Positions 10,743 through 46,117 of a stretch of 64,000 bases of DNA are shown in pieces. The translations under genes and the position numbers were made by a program. The number at the start of each line of letters is the position of its first letter. Positions within the stretch are counted from its first letter, which is position 1. The DNA comes from a virus: IMG/VR virus record IMGVR_UViG_3300049489_001303, positions 106,145 through 170,144 of that record. One strand, 5' to 3'. Below the pieces are notes generated by a model that was not told where the DNA came from, made no database searches, and saw only the letters and a program-made list of their open reading frames with translations.

Positions 10743-13523
10743 TCACTTCGAGTAGAGAGTGCGGCTTCCCAGCGCGTCAATCTCGTAATGTGTGCCGTAG
10801 TTGATCAGGAATACATCCCCGGGGAACGTGTCCTGGCTGCTGCGCGAAAATGACGTCAGGTTCTCCTGCGAAACACTATTGCTCACGGGCTGGTACCCTG
10901 TCAAGTTGCTCCAGTCAGCTGAGTCATCAATGGGAACCAGATAGTGTCCATACGCCGGGTAGGTCATGGAAGCTGTCCAGGTCACGTCGAACGTATGCGT
11001 GTTATTGGTGAACACCCCAGTGCCTACCGGATCCACTTCTGTGGCTCCAATGTAGTGAATACCCGCCGAATAGATCTCCACGATGAACCTGATAGTCTGC
11101 CCAGCTATGATGTCCTGGTTAGTCGTGATATGCACATGTGGATATACCTTGCTCCCCACCAGCCAATTGTGCTGCATAGGCACATTGAAGCTGGCAGACT
11201 GCATGATTCCAGGCTCGAAGGCCAGCAACTGAACGCCTCGGGAAATATCGTTACCTACAGGGCCCACCACCCAGCTGGGAGATCCGGCCAATACCAGAGC
11301 ACTGCCGGTCAGGGTGTTGGCCACAGACGTTCCAGCGCCTTCTTCCATGCGCCAGATACCTACCGCGGTGGGGCCCGACGGAATAGTATACGTGCCGTGT
11401 CCATCATTGTAGCGGCTCAGAACGTTTGCGGGAGACATCACCGTGGAGTACACCGCCACGTTCGTGATAGCCGCGTCCGCCGAATACTGCACAGCGCCAC
11501 CATTGGCAGCAAAACCACCCACCGTGATGGGCGAGTTGAAGTTGAACGTAGCCGCCGTGAGTGCTGTGGACTTACCGTTCACGTAGAGCAGTGCTGTGTT
11601 TCCGGTTGTGGTGAGCACCAGGTGGTTCCAACGATTGAGCGCCAAAGGATAAACTCCGTTGACTGCCGTGCCACCGTTGAAGCGTACATACGGTATTCTG
11701 GAGTTGTCCGGGGTTCCGATCTCAAGCCGCGATGTAGAAGCATTGTTATGCGCTGCGAAGTATACCTGCTGCCCCCGGATGTTAGTTGGTCGGACCCACA
11801 GGTCAATACTGTACGTGCCGCTGGTCAGGGCGTTCGTGAGCGCCGTGTATAGGGCAATGGTTCCGTACTTGCTGGTGGCGTTGAAATTAACAGCGTTAAG
11901 GGTTGTCCCCGAGGTCTGCAGTACAGTCTTGTAAACCGGGGGGTTAGCCTCATCAGTGGTCATTCCAGCAGCTGCAACGTAGTAGTCTTCAAATGTAGTG
12001 GCCTTACCATGCAACTGCATGGATCCGTCACCCTGCACTTCAAAGTAGTCCGCGCCCACGCCCACTTTGAGAATAGGATTGCTGTTCGCCGCGGGGGAAA
12101 TAATCTCGTACAGACCCGTCGCCGGGTTGAACTTGAGACGTGTTGAGGACGTATACGGCGTAACCACGCCGTTGATCGTGGTGCTCATTACAGGGTACAG
12201 ATTCAGGTTGGCCGAGGTGTCTGTACCGGACATCGTTGTGCCTGCGGGGCCTTCAGCGCCCGTAGCCCCAGTGGGGCCCGTGGCGCCCGTAGCACCAGTG
12301 GGGCCGGTAGCTCCTGTCGGGCCGTCCGCGCCGGTGGGGCCAATCAAGCCTTGTGGGCCAGTGGCTCCTGTGGCGCCTTTCGCCCCCGTAGCACCTGTGG
12401 GGCCCTGCGGTCCTGTGATATTGCCCACATCCGTAAAGGTATCCGGCAATGCGGTGCAGACATAGAGGTGACCGGAGTCCACCACGATGTAACCATCACC
12501 GAGGGTGTTACCTTCTGTAGGAAGATTCGCCGCAGTGGCCACGCTGCCTTTGATAACAACAGACTGGCCATCCTGGCCCGTTGGGCCAGTGGGACCGTCG
12601 GCGCCAGTTTCACCTGTGGGGCCGGTGGGGCCGGTTGCACCAGTTGCACCAGTGGCGCCGGTGGCGCCGGTTGCACCCGTCGGGCCAGTGGCTCCGGTGG
12701 CTCCAGTAGCGCCAACGCCCGTGGCTCCAGTAGCTCCAGTGGGACCTGTGGGACCAGTGGCTCCCTGAATACCCTGCAACCCTGTATCACCGGTGGGACC
12801 TGTGGGGCCGGTGGGGCCTGTTCCACCTGTGGCACCCTTAGCAGCTACCAGTTCCCAGTAGTTCGTGTCGGTAACGGGGTTTCCCGTTGAGGGTGTAGCA
12901 AAAACATAGACGTAAGATGCTCCGTTGAACGTTACAACGTCCACATAGCGGTATTCGGTGCCGACGTCCCAAACTCCCATGGGCATCCACATAACCCCTG
13001 TAGCGCCGGTAGCGCCGGTGGGTCCCGTGTCGCCGCGGATGCCGCTGTCGGCGATTTCGTTGATGGCGCCGATAACGGAGGTAGCTGTAAACCCCGGGTC
13101 GAGACCGGTAACCCCCGGCTCAGTAAAGGGTATAGGGTCCGCAAGATTGCCCATGTCTGCAGTATGGAACTGTACAACGTCCGCTCTTAAGGAGGTTGTG
13201 GCTACGCCGAAGCGTACGTCCGTAGTAACCTCTGCCCAATTGGAATCTGTGCTGGCGGACAGCCTACAGGATAGCATCAGATCAGCGCTGTCTTCATATA
13301 TTGTGCAGTCCAGACCTGCATTATTATCCCCGGAGCCTGTTCGCGCCATTACAGTAGCATACGCGTTACGTACTTCAGCCCCTACAGGGGTTTCTGCGGT
13401 ATTCTCTGCCAGGAGCAAAGCTTCAACAGCGTCTGTAGTCTCATTGAATTCAGCTACAAGCGTGACATCCTGGCTCACACTGATTTCACCACTGAACCCC
13501 GTATTATTACCCAAGTTAGCCAT
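10743..13523 (-). CDS. Collagen-like tail fibre with LamG-like lectin domain
   Basis: A 926-residue protein. A beta-rich head (1-155) is followed by Gly-X-Y repeats in three blocks (about 160-175, 229-315 and 375-430), mostly GPT and GAT triplets, which should form a collagen triple helix. Between blocks lies a carbohydrate-binding-like insert ([18 protein letters not shown], ending in 'NYWEL'). Residues about 560-720 look like a LamG/concanavalin-like domain ([12 protein letters not shown], then [20 protein letters not shown]). The C-terminus is an unassigned beta domain. The protein is likely trimeric and involved in receptor binding. Thr in the Y position is a known glycosylation site in bacterial collagens such as BclA, and two glycosyltransferase genes lie in the same cluster. 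Confidence 0.8.
12230..13030 (-). repeat. Gly-X-Thr collagen-like coding repeats
   Basis: A run of 9-base periodic sequence encoding GPT/GAT triplets, interrupted by two non-collagen inserts. Synonymous positions vary, so the repeat is maintained at protein level rather than being a recent DNA duplication. The opposite strand shows Pro/Ala-rich shadow frames that are not genes. Confidence 0.85.
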
Positions 13524-43281: not shown

Positions 43282-43854
43282 ATGAAACGTATATATTACG
43301 TACTGGTAGCCCTTATTCTCACTTTGCCCACGCTGGCGGGTGAACCCGCACCTGTTCGGGTGGCCATGCTGGAAGCCATTGAGACTGAGACAGTTGAAGC
43401 CGAAGCAATGCGGATGGAAGACAAACTCGACAGCGCAATCCTCTACTACCTGGCGGGTTCAAAGAGACATCCAATGGCCAAGTGGGACAATCGTGAGGCC
43501 CTTATCAAGGATCTGATCGTCGCGGGGAATGAATATGGCGTCTCTCCCTACCTGCTGCTTACCACGGCTTTCTATGAGAGTAGCCTCCTGATTTCGGCTG
43601 TCGGCACGAGGGGGGAGATCGGACTTACTCAGGTCCACGGGGATGCCAAGAAAGAGTGTGAGCTTGACACACAACTTGGCCAGTTAATGTGTGGTGCCCG
43701 GTGGCTGAAGAAGGCTCATGATGTTTGTGGATACTGGCCGGGAGCGCTTACAATGTACGCCACGGGTGAGTGTCGTTCCAAATCGGAACGTGTGGTTCGG
43801 CTGGTTCACTTCCGTATGGAGAAGTGGCAGTACGTCGAAAACCTGACTAACTGA
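43282..43854 (+). CDS. Secreted SLT-type transglycosylase (endolysin candidate)
   Basis: A 190-residue protein; ATG 43282 follows AGGAG. Residues 1-20 are a Sec signal peptide (MKRIYYVLVALILTLPTLAG) with a probable cleavage after the AG. The SLT/goose-lysozyme-like core runs from about residue 75: 'YGVSPYLLLTTAFYESSLLI' carries the catalytic Glu in the family's 'ES' motif, followed by 'GEIGLTQVHG' corresponding to the 'G-x-x-G-L-M-Q' motif, and 'GALTMYATGE'. It would cleave the glycan chain in the periplasm. A Sec-exported lysozyme need not await a holin. It is the last protein gene before the structured RNA. Confidence 0.78.
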   Translation: MKRIYYVLVALILTLPTLAGEPAPVRVAMLEAIETETVEAEAMRMEDKLDSAILYYLAGSKRHPMAKWDNREALIKDLIVAGNEYGVSPYLLLTTAFYESSLLISAVGTRGEIGLTQVHGDAKKECELDTQLGQLMCGARWLKKAHDVCGYWPGALTMYATGECRSKSERVVRLVHFRMEKWQYVENLTN

Positions 43855-43863
43855 GGGTATAAA
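43835..43863 (+). promoter_or_regulatory. Promoter candidate of structured RNA
   Basis: TCGAAA (43835-43840), 17 bases, TATAAA (43858-43863). The -35 hexamer lies inside the end of the SLT gene and the -10 just after its stop. The predicted start near 43870 coincides with the 5' strand of the closing helix. Confidence 0.42.
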
Positions 43864-43869
43864 GACTTA

Positions 43870-44040
43870 GCAACACGTCGGCTTCTTTACAGGGAAGCAG
43901 GGGTACAGAAACTGTACCCACTATGCCCTGCCCCTTCGAAGACTCGGGGCCAAAGGAAAAAAGAGGACTGCGGACTTTCTCCAGGTACACACAAAGGTGT
44001 TGCAGAGGATGGTTGAAATATACCATCCTCTTTTTTTTTT
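43870..44040 (+). ncRNA. Putative structured small RNA (about 165 nt)
   Basis: A non-coding interval. A 7-bp helix GCAACAC (43870-43876) with GTGTTGC (43997-44003) encloses it. Inside are a GCTTC/GAAGC hairpin (43881-43898), a perfect 8-bp hairpin GGGTACAG-AAA-CTGTACCC (43901-43919) and GCCCC/GGGGC (43930-43950). The strong intrinsic terminator starts at 44004, the very next base after the closing helix. A promoter-like element sits at 43835-43863. The organisation is that of an independent small RNA. The family is unknown; a tRNA fold does not fit despite a TTCGAA stretch. Confidence 0.55.
44004..44040 (+). terminator. Rho-independent terminator
   Basis: Perfect 10-bp stem AGAGGATGGT (44004-44013) with ACCATCCTCT (44022-44031), 8-base loop, followed by a run of T to 44040. 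Ends the rightward operon and the putative RNA. Confidence 0.92.
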
Positions 44041-44044
44041 GGCC

Positions 44045-44073
44045 TTTACACTGCAAACAACCCCTGCTATCAT
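44045..44073 (+). promoter_or_regulatory. Sigma-70-like promoter after the terminator
   Basis: TTTACA (44045-44050), 17-base spacer, TATCAT (44068-44073); each hexamer matches five of six consensus positions. Predicted start near 44080. It should drive the 44114-46257 operon. Confidence 0.72.
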
Positions 44074-44113
44074 CCACCCATAGGTTAAACGCGAATGGCC
44101 GGGGAGGTTGGGA

Positions 44114-44413
44114 ATGACTGTGGACATTTATAAAGAGGGTGAAGAGAATGTGATCGCTGAGATTGCCATGCACACGGGGAACCTACTTATTGTAGACGAC
44201 GTAGCATTGGCGGGGCTTCCAGCAGGAACTAACTTCGTGAGCCTGCATGTGGGTTCAGTGCAGCCCCAATGGGTTCCCGTGATCGCTACGCGGCAGGGGG
44301 GAAAAAGATACATTCTGATCTCCATCGACGACGCCATGGACATGCCCACGCAACTGACTGAAATAGTCCCTATTGAAACCCCGGAAACAAACGAAGATGC
44401 AACCGATAAATAA
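44114..44413 (+). CDS. Small protein of unknown function
   Basis: A 99-residue protein. ATG 44114 has GGGGAGG seven bases upstream; the TTG at 44108 has no support. It is beta-rich (MTVDIYKEGEENVIAEIAMH, then 'NLLIVDDVALAGLPAG') with an acidic Thr/Glu-rich tail. The last 17 bases overlap the dNMP kinase gene. No family is recognised. Confidence 0.66.
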   Translation: MTVDIYKEGEENVIAEIAMHTGNLLIVDDVALAGLPAGTNFVSLHVGSVQPQWVPVIATRQGGKRYILISIDDAMDMPTQLTEIVPIETPETNEDATDK

Positions 44414-44981
44414 CCCCCTGAGTATTGTGGGCATCGCCGGAGGGTTGAACTGCGGTAAAGGTGCTGTCGCCGCTGTGTTCCACGGCCAAGGATATATGGA
44501 ACGAAACTTCTCAGATCCCCTCAAGCGTATTGTCCGTGAGCTTTTCAACGTTTCCACCAAAGAGTTATGGGGCCCCAGCCAGAACCGATCCCCCGAGGTG
44601 CGTGCCATGCTGCAGGAGTTAGGCACAGACTACGCCCGTAAGTTCCGGCCCAACATCTGGGTGGATAAGATGGAAGAGTCCCTTTCTGCCTTTGCCTCCA
44701 GTGGCATCAAGGGGTACAAAGGGGTCGTTGTAGCTGACATACGATTCCCGAATGAGATTGAGCTGCTACGCTCCATGGGTGGAAAGATGATACGTATCCG
44801 TCGCCCGGGAAACTGCTCCCACTTGCCCACGGAGCTGGGCAAACACAGCAGTGAAACTGCCATAGATAATATGCCTGACTCGGCCTTCGACTACATCATA
44901 CAAAACGACGGAACACTGGAAGACCTCCAGAACACCGTCCTGAGCATAATCGAAGACATCAATGCCCTTCATATCAAATGA
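44397..44981 (+). CDS. Deoxynucleoside monophosphate kinase
   Basis: A 194-residue protein starting at ATG 44397 inside the previous gene (the frame is open 8 codons earlier without SD). Residues about 11-22 (GIAGGLNCGKGAV) are a P-loop of the G-x-x-x-x-G-K type, here with Gly instead of Ser/Thr at the last position as in some phage dNMP kinases. 'YMERNFSDPLKRIVRELFNV', 'LQELGTDYARKF' and 'VVVADIRFPNEIELLRSMGG' match the phage dNMP kinase family (T4 gp1-like). It phosphorylates dNMPs for phage DNA synthesis, and is the only nucleotide-metabolism gene in the window. Confidence 0.83.
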   Translation: MQPINNPLSIVGIAGGLNCGKGAVAAVFHGQGYMERNFSDPLKRIVRELFNVSTKELWGPSQNRSPEVRAMLQELGTDYARKFRPNIWVDKMEESLSAFASSGIKGYKGVVVADIRFPNEIELLRSMGGKMIRIRRPGNCSHLPTELGKHSSETAIDNMPDSAFDYIIQNDGTLEDLQNTVLSIIEDINALHIK

Positions 44982-45408
44982 CCTGCCGGTAAACCCCGCC
45001 GACGGCGCCATATTCACTTACCCCGCTGGCAAGGTGGGGGGCGCTGGCAGCGCGATCTCTCTGTACCACATGACAGAGCTGATCGGAACAACCCCCAGCG
45101 TCATGCCGGTGGCGGGGAGAGACGACCTCATGTCCCTGGAGCGGGTCGTTACCAAAGTGCCCGTCGAAAGTAAGATGGTCTTGAAAATCCTGGCCGAACA
45201 GTTTATATTCGGTTCTCTTATTTTCCATAGCGGCTTCGGGTGGTTTGGCTTCGATGACGGAAAGGTGTCCAAGCTACCCATATATGAGCGTTTCGTGCGT
45301 GTGACTTGCGTTGTACCCATAGGCCCCACTACTGAGGGCTTGTACCTGTATGAGAAAATTGGTGTCAAACTGATTGGAGGCCTCGATGAAGAAACCAGTG
45401 GTACCTGA
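44962..45408 (+). CDS. Protein of unknown function
   Basis: A 148-residue protein overlapping the end of the dNMP kinase gene by 20 bases. It has mixed strands with many Gly/Phe (HSGFGWFGFDDGKVSKL) and Val-rich strands (FVRVTCVVPIGPTTEGLYLY). Its 3' end overlaps the next gene, which starts at 45386. No family is recognised. Confidence 0.66.
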   Translation: MPFISNDLPVNPADGAIFTYPAGKVGGAGSAISLYHMTELIGTTPSVMPVAGRDDLMSLERVVTKVPVESKMVLKILAEQFIFGSLIFHSGFGWFGFDDGKVSKLPIYERFVRVTCVVPIGPTTEGLYLYEKIGVKLIGGLDEETSGT

Positions 45409-46117
45409 GGATTTAAGAAGACAAGTGGAAGAAGCTATCCGCACCGGGGCGCCCCTGCCTCCTGGAGTGGTAACGGTTGGCCCGGGCCAGAAGCCGCCGC
45501 CCGGAGCTATGTCCCTGGGATCGATCGACCCCAAGCACCCGGCCATGGCCAAGAAAGAATCCCAGAACCCGCTACCAAGTGGGGCCGCTGGGTTAAAAAC
45601 CATCCGGGACGGTGGGGAATGCAACATCGGCTATGAGACGGGCAACCTGAACACCCTCATGGACAAAGTGCTCGATGACGCCAAGGGCTGCAGTGAAGAA
45701 GAGTCTGAGAAGCTGGAAGAGCTCCTCCGCGACTCACTGGCCAAGGGCGTTGTGGTGGCCATGCGCATGGAGGAGTACTGTGAGAACCACAGCTCCAGGA
45801 GGGTCTCCATCACCTTTGAGCGTCACCCTGAGTTGCTCGAAGTGCATCAGGAGATCGGCCGGCTGCAGGCTGAGGCCGAGGAAACCCGCAAGAAGATGCA
45901 GGAACTGCTGGCCGCCGGCAAAGAGGCACTGCAGAAGCGCTGGGAACTGGCCGTCAAGCTGGGTGGGCTGTCCCCCGAGAACAACTACTACATGATCAAC
46001 GAAGAGGCTGGTTGTGTGGAGCTGGTTGAGCTGAACTGCCATGAGTGTAAGGGTGCTGTCAAAGTCCGGAAGGCGCGGCAGGCGTTGCAGGAATATGCGG
46101 CGAAGATCAAGCCATGA
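45386..46117 (+). CDS. Coiled-coil protein with Cys pair at C-terminus
   Basis: A 243-residue protein starting at ATG 45386 (GGAGG five bases upstream). The first 85 residues are Pro/Gly-rich and probably disordered. About 90-210 are strongly helical and charged (EIGRLQAEAEETRKKMQELL). Near the C-terminus comes CVELVELNCHECKGAV, a C-x-x-C with flanking Cys that could bind zinc. No family is recognised. It overlaps the tiny Cys-rich gene that follows. Confidence 0.66.
   Translation: MKKPVVPEDLRRQVEEAIRTGAPLPPGVVTVGPGQKPPPGAMSLGSIDPKHPAMAKKESQNPLPSGAAGLKTIRDGGECNIGYETGNLNTLMDKVLDDAKGCSEEESEKLEELLRDSLAKGVVVAMRMEEYCENHSSRRVSITFERHPELLEVHQEIGRLQAEAEETRKKMQELLAAGKEALQKRWELAVKLGGLSPENNYYMINEEAGCVELVELNCHECKGAVKVRKARQALQEYAAKIKP

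Follow-up and report, generated by a model that had tools for sequence, protein, structure and literature searches.

A single-unit structured RNA in a large bacterial virus and its probable place in a new modular family of phage RNAs

The locus and its RNA unit

The window analysed here is a 64,000-base stretch (bases 106145-170144) of a 170,144-base IMG/VR virus record (G000), and its source is a large virus of bacteria. Between an SLT-like transglycosylase gene and a small gene for a predicted all-beta protein (predicted structure at pLDDT 71, without a significant match in a fold search) lies an interval that a first-pass annotation had listed as 43835-44040 and had read as a discrete, phage-encoded structured RNA. 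The SLT-like gene still occupies the first ~20 bases of that interval; the rest holds an RNA of ~134 nt counted from P1 to P1', or of ~165-170 nt counted with leader and terminator (Table 1). No tRNA was found at the window locus.

Table 1. Features of the window locus and matches to the unit descriptor in the whole G000 record (window positions unless marked as genome positions)
Feature	Position	Strand	Basis or remark
Upstream gene, SLT-like transglycosylase	43282..43854 (stop 43852-43854)	+	RNA lies after its stop, as arrays do in relatives
GGGTATAAAG, possible -10-like element	43855..43864	+	sequence; missed by promoter scan
Complete RNA unit, P1 to P1'	43870..44003	+	descriptor match, fold z, synteny with relatives' RNA arrays
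P1 5' strand, GCAACAC	43870..43876	+	sequence; equivalent helix fully paired in 34 units
P2 hairpin, GCTTC-TTTACAGG-GAAGC	43881..43898 (stems 43881-43885 / 43894-43898)	+	sequence, fold prediction
P3 hairpin, GGGTACAG-AAA-CTGTACCC, 8 bp perfect, triloop AAA closed by G-C	43901..43919	+	sequence, fold prediction
P4 hairpin, GCCCC...GGGGC	43930..43950 (stems 43930-43934 / 43946-43950)	+	MFE and centroid structure
Additional CCAG	43981-43984	+	sequence
AG directly 5' of P1 3' strand	43995..43996	+	sequence
P1 3' strand (P1'), GTGTTGC	43997..44003	+	sequence; covariation count
Intrinsic terminator, 10-bp stem and T-run	44004..44040 (stem-loop 44004-44031)	+	terminator scan
Promoter-like site TTTACA-17-TATCAT, 3' of terminator	44045..44073	+	promoter scan, better of 2 matches
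Downstream small gene, predicted all-beta protein	44117..44413	+	adjoins array in 4/5 relatives
Deoxynucleoside monophosphate kinase gene, synteny anchor	44388..44981	+	synteny with relatives
Descriptor match	genome 27334-27526	-	precedes tRNA-Leu
tRNA-Leu (TAA), sole ARAGORN tRNA in G000 record	genome 27071-27155 (L012:8071-8155)	-	downstream of the preceding unit, same strand
Descriptor match, site 2	genome 88576-88693	+	descriptor
Descriptor match, site 2	genome 88700-88856	+	descriptor
Descriptor match, the window unit	genome 150014-150147	+	descriptor

The 7-bp closing helix (P1) ends exactly at the start of the terminator, as the first-pass annotation had claimed, and the internal hairpins that it had noted were located as P2, P3 (the perfect 8-bp hairpin) and P4. 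When compared with dinucleotide shuffles, the fold of 43835-44040 gave a z-score of -3.5 with no shuffle equally good, the trimmed interval 43855-44045 gave -4.6, and the corresponding intervals of relatives gave -2.4 to -9.9. Shuffled 170-kb genomes are expected to contain 0.1 comparable units each (P3 of at least 8 bp, P1 of at least 7 bp, P1' preceded by AG). We consider it almost certain that the interval specifies a stable structured RNA. The interval had been described as devoid of open frames; three mechanical ORFs do overlap it (108 aa and 68 aa on the minus strand, 64 aa on the plus strand), and for none of them was a relative found among the fetched loci.

The promoter-like element reported earlier was not recovered, as the promoter scan picked up nothing sigma-70-like on the 5' side of the RNA and its better match lies after the terminator, where it would serve the next gene and not the RNA. 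This sigma-70-like site (within 44045-44110) stands in place of a TTAAANTCTGTTAACGT-like motif that the relatives L054, L055, L053 and L145 conserve ahead of the gene for the small beta protein. As a promoter element, GGGTATAAAG is suggestive only. GGTATAA or a close variant is found shortly 5' of the P1 5' strand in the window (43856-43862), at L015:12565-12575 and at site 2 (see below) of L017-L020, L025 and L026; the site-2 copy overlaps with the last bases of the polymerase gene and in G000 coincides with a GTA codon plus stop. GGTATAA upstream of arrays is a possible promoter.

A riboswitch or attenuator of the small gene and the kinase gene would also look like this, with a terminator directly behind a structured domain and a same-strand gene beyond it. 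We regard that reading as scarcely tenable, since P1' (ending at 44003) and the terminator (from 44004) do not overlap and so are not mutually exclusive structures, the promoter-like site lies 3' of the terminator at a place where relatives share the TTAAANTCTGTTAACGT-like motif, other copies of the unit have a convergent gene or tRNAs behind them and thus no comparable gene to regulate, and no Rfam riboswitch was matched.

Syntenic slots and further copies

Relatives were retrieved via terminase, and whole records were then searched with the neighbouring proteins; the SLT-like protein as query gave no usable relatives, and the kinase alignment was dominated by unrelated kinases. The nearest isolates are Salmonella phage Arash and Vibrio phages D181, D148 and D69, at ~29% identity in terminase and 33-35% in RNA polymerase. 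Phages of this group encode an RNA polymerase of the multi-subunit type, with beta-like proteins at L014:8515-12900 (-) and L014:5296-7146 (-). No direct DNA homologue of the window RNA was found in 50,697 phage records, whole-record blastn against 24 relatives gave nothing beyond chance matches of 15-19 nt, and the exact P3 hairpin is absent from the viral contigs searched.

Gene order around the slot is shared by four terminase relatives (G012, G003, G002 and G009), and a fifth, L145 (record G025), was reached through a small membrane protein encoded 3.5 kb downstream, which has no match in prokaryote genomes. In all five, the region that separates the SLT-position gene from its downstream neighbour (the kinase gene in G012, that for the small beta protein in the other four) is long, non-coding and rich in hairpins. 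These slots hold one unit in G012, three each in G003 and G002, and four each in G009 and L145, and they constitute a fair test because the loci were picked by their proteins and not by their hairpins. Between the window RNA and the arrays of the relatives there is no recognisable nucleotide similarity; architecture alone is held in common. The RNA family was found solely in uncultured phage records: in the collection searched no isolate has the arrays, and none of the isolate phages has the G009 SLT-position protein, the 45374-46117 protein or DNA resembling the L019 array.

A strand-aware descriptor consisting of P1, AG and P3 was run over whole records. With wobble pairs allowed, G000 has exactly four matches against 1.0 expected in shuffles, all of them in non-coding structured loci (Table 1); relatives have 3-7 matches each (0-0.8 expected), and more distant or unrelated records 0-2. 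Two of the G000 matches lie at a second conserved slot (site 2), flanked on one side by the 3' end of the DNA polymerase gene and on the other by the terminase gene in convergent orientation. In several terminase relatives (L017-L026) this slot contains arrays of 0.3-1.2 kb; it is missing in other relatives (e.g., L028, L032, L033, L037 and L038). Terminators follow immediately 3' of units at two G000 loci, the window and site 2. Units also occur among tRNA genes. One G002 unit has tRNA-Gln on one side and, on the same strand, tRNA-Glu on the other, which starts 3 nt after the end of P1', and another lies 3' of tRNA-Pro/Lys, again on the same strand. G002 also encodes a tmRNA (tag ADNVVELFPKVEAAPVAKAA; L054:8829-9208 (-) / L171:17629-18007 (-)), ~3 kb away from its RNA array.

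The placement of units right after stop codons (of the SLT-like and DNA polymerase genes), before terminators or convergent genes and in the same orientation as the upstream gene would suit a cis-acting 3'-end element, i.e., a 3'-UTR structure that protects or processes the upstream mRNA or insulates transcription units and is not a free RNA. We think this explanation unlikely, given that units are also found among tRNA genes and as close as 3 nt to a tRNA start, that the length of the arrays (up to ~1.1 kb) far exceeds the need of a terminator or stabiliser, and that the conserved triloop described below hints at a binding partner.

Unit architecture, covariation and strand

The elements of a unit follow in the order P1 5' strand, usually GA, P2, P3, further hairpins, AG and P1 3' strand. 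P2-like hairpins are present at the equivalent place in most units of relatives, and the P2 loop of the window unit is similar to TTTACTAGG / TTTACTAAA of the L145 and G003 units. P3 has 6-8 bp across the family with an NWA triloop closed by G-C, and P4 often has a UUC triloop. AG before P1' was required by the descriptor; among 34 distinct units the full triplet is CAG in 20, AAG in seven and TAG in seven. The window unit has the whole set of family elements (P1, G/GA, P2, P3 with the G-NWA-C triloop and AG before P1') save for one deviation and is slightly atypical, with GT instead of GA after the P1 5' strand and AAG instead of CAG before P1'.

Covariation was counted by script on the 34 structure-anchored units, at six inner pairs each of P1 and P3; this counting was used without a covariance model because the unit sequences are too diverged for full-unit alignment by MAFFT. 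Double (compensatory) changes were found at 6/6 P1 positions and 5/6 P3 positions (11/12 in total), and every position other than the invariant P3-closing G-C pair displays 3-5 pair types and 8-22 double changes. The compensatory changes in the GCAACAC/GTGTTGC helix that the first-pass annotation had proposed to look for are, at the level of the family, present. Standard pairs make up 100% of P1 and P3 in 34/34 units, a figure that is partly so by construction because the descriptor required both helices to be paired. When the 3' strands were re-dealt among units, pairing fell to 52% for P1 and 56% for P3, and in 1000 trials it never exceeded 69% and 68%, respectively. This control speaks to the pairing as well, and independent support for it comes from synteny, the low background and the strand control.

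In the strand control, 34/41 P3 hairpins on the RNA strand are accompanied by P1 and AG, versus 2/25 on the opposite strand of the identical intervals. The ratio of wobble pairs to A.C mismatches was 48:31 in the intervals versus 188:168 in a gene control, which is a modest signal. Total folding energy has no preference for the RNA strand, the minus strand being as good or better in 15/21 intervals. The last result is what inverted repeats would give if the hairpins acted at the DNA level, in replication, packaging or recombination, with the RNA fold incidental, and the multiple copies and the slot that adjoins the terminase gene point the same way. Such a role is nonetheless very improbable, for the GA, AG and G-NWA-C motifs are strand-specific, the orientation of units tracks that of neighbouring genes and tRNAs, T-runs lie 3' on the RNA strand, and some wobble pairs favour the RNA strand.

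The earlier reading of a discrete, phage-encoded structured RNA is borne out by conserved position, by compensatory changes in P1 and P3 and by repetition within the same genome. The result extends beyond that reading, as the unit belongs to a family that is dispersed, modular and sometimes arrayed in tandem. We propose that the window interval is probably a single-unit member of a new modular family of structured phage RNAs.

Known RNAs, possible roles and cassette arrays

The family very probably had not been described before. At the gathering threshold Rfam gave no match in the window and only a tmRNA and a tRNA in 15 loci (246 kb) of G000 and relatives, in keeping with the first-pass annotation, which did not recognise the RNA; an E-value scan of the interval produced a chance lincRNA match only, and a literature search for a described equivalent turned up only GOLLD, ROOL and OLE. 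GOLLD is a large, elaborate non-coding RNA of phages and prophages whose role is unknown and which often adjoins tRNA genes, and ROOL is an ornate phage and prophage RNA, often near tRNA islands and without a known protein partner, that forms RNA-only cages (PMC12286853). By habit (phage-borne, tRNA-adjacent, ornate) these two are the nearest known RNAs. The likeness lies in same-strand proximity to tRNAs, as in the tRNA-Glu/Gln, tRNA-Pro/Lys and tRNA-Leu units, and does not extend to the window locus. The new family is comparable in kind to GOLLD and ROOL but is not a member of either: covariance-model matches are absent from the window and relatives, GOLLD differs from the small repeated units and from cassettes with complementary linkers, and ROOL is a single large fold whereas the new family occurs as 1-4 tandem units or as one-to-many cassette arrays. 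The Ro-associated Y RNA was considered and rejected, as no PF05731 protein was detected in six records (the control was detected) and there was no Rfam match.

Stable RNAs of the T4 tRNA operon (species 1 and 2, or RNA C and D) are ~120-140 nt long, are cut from tRNA transcripts and have no known role. Their resemblance to the new units is one of description, and we know of none that occur as arrays or at operon ends. Repeated identical hairpin elements give multivalency to sponge RNAs of the CsrB/RsmZ type; the new units differ from these in that the conserved loop is G-NWA-C, without GGA, and that each unit is a closed multibranch domain.

Most probably the RNA is stable and non-coding; it would be transcribed together with the upstream operon or the tRNAs, then cut from the 3' end of the operon transcript or from tRNA transcripts and trimmed to P1, or else be made from its own promoter. 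In the window, the intrinsic terminator would set the 3' end. The sequence variation in P1 speaks against a fixed antisense target, and the fixed P3 loop speaks for recognition. The repeated identical elements (P3 triloop and P1 junction) might be presented to a partner, with copy number setting the valency, and we tentatively suggest a multivalent scaffold or decoy, a role that is possible though open to considerable doubt. Few classes of large structured phage RNA have been described, and their functions are unknown; the new family is a modular addition to them, in which one domain occurs alone (~134 nt), in tandem or in cassette arrays of ~1 kb, with clear compensatory changes. A unit of this size can be synthesized, which makes its binding partner, oligomerisation and role testable and may ease the approach to what the ornate, tRNA-adjacent phage RNAs do. 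The intergenic space of these RNA-polymerase-encoding phages is not empty.

In the cassette arrays, several cassettes, each consisting of a hairpin, AG and a copy of the P1 3' strand, follow a single 5' element. One array, at the polymerase slot of L019 (G003; 11602-12760 on the minus strand, downstream of terminase), has nine near-identical copies of AGCAGT(G/A)CC against one 5' strand, GGTACTG. The copies are spaced 51-130 nt apart and every gap holds one long closed hairpin, except the first, which holds two; the final copy is a perfect complement of the 5' strand, and the inner eight copies each have one wobble pair. Smaller cassette arrays are present in the polymerase slot of L022 (four copies), L021 (three) and L025 (three), and the L019 pattern was found in no other viral contig. 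One could imagine a reconfigurable or self-assembling RNA in which the P1 5' strand pairs with alternative cassettes of the same molecule or of another copy, so joining the conserved P2-P3 core to different hairpin payloads or polymerising. We hold this to be rather improbable; if true, it would amount to a phage RNA machine of an undescribed kind. A different tandem array, with ~4 units made up of CTCCGTAGTGGAG and AAGCCTAGCTT hairpins, lies at this slot, downstream of terminase, in L035 (G019; interval positions 790-1560) and is probably a second, related RNA type.
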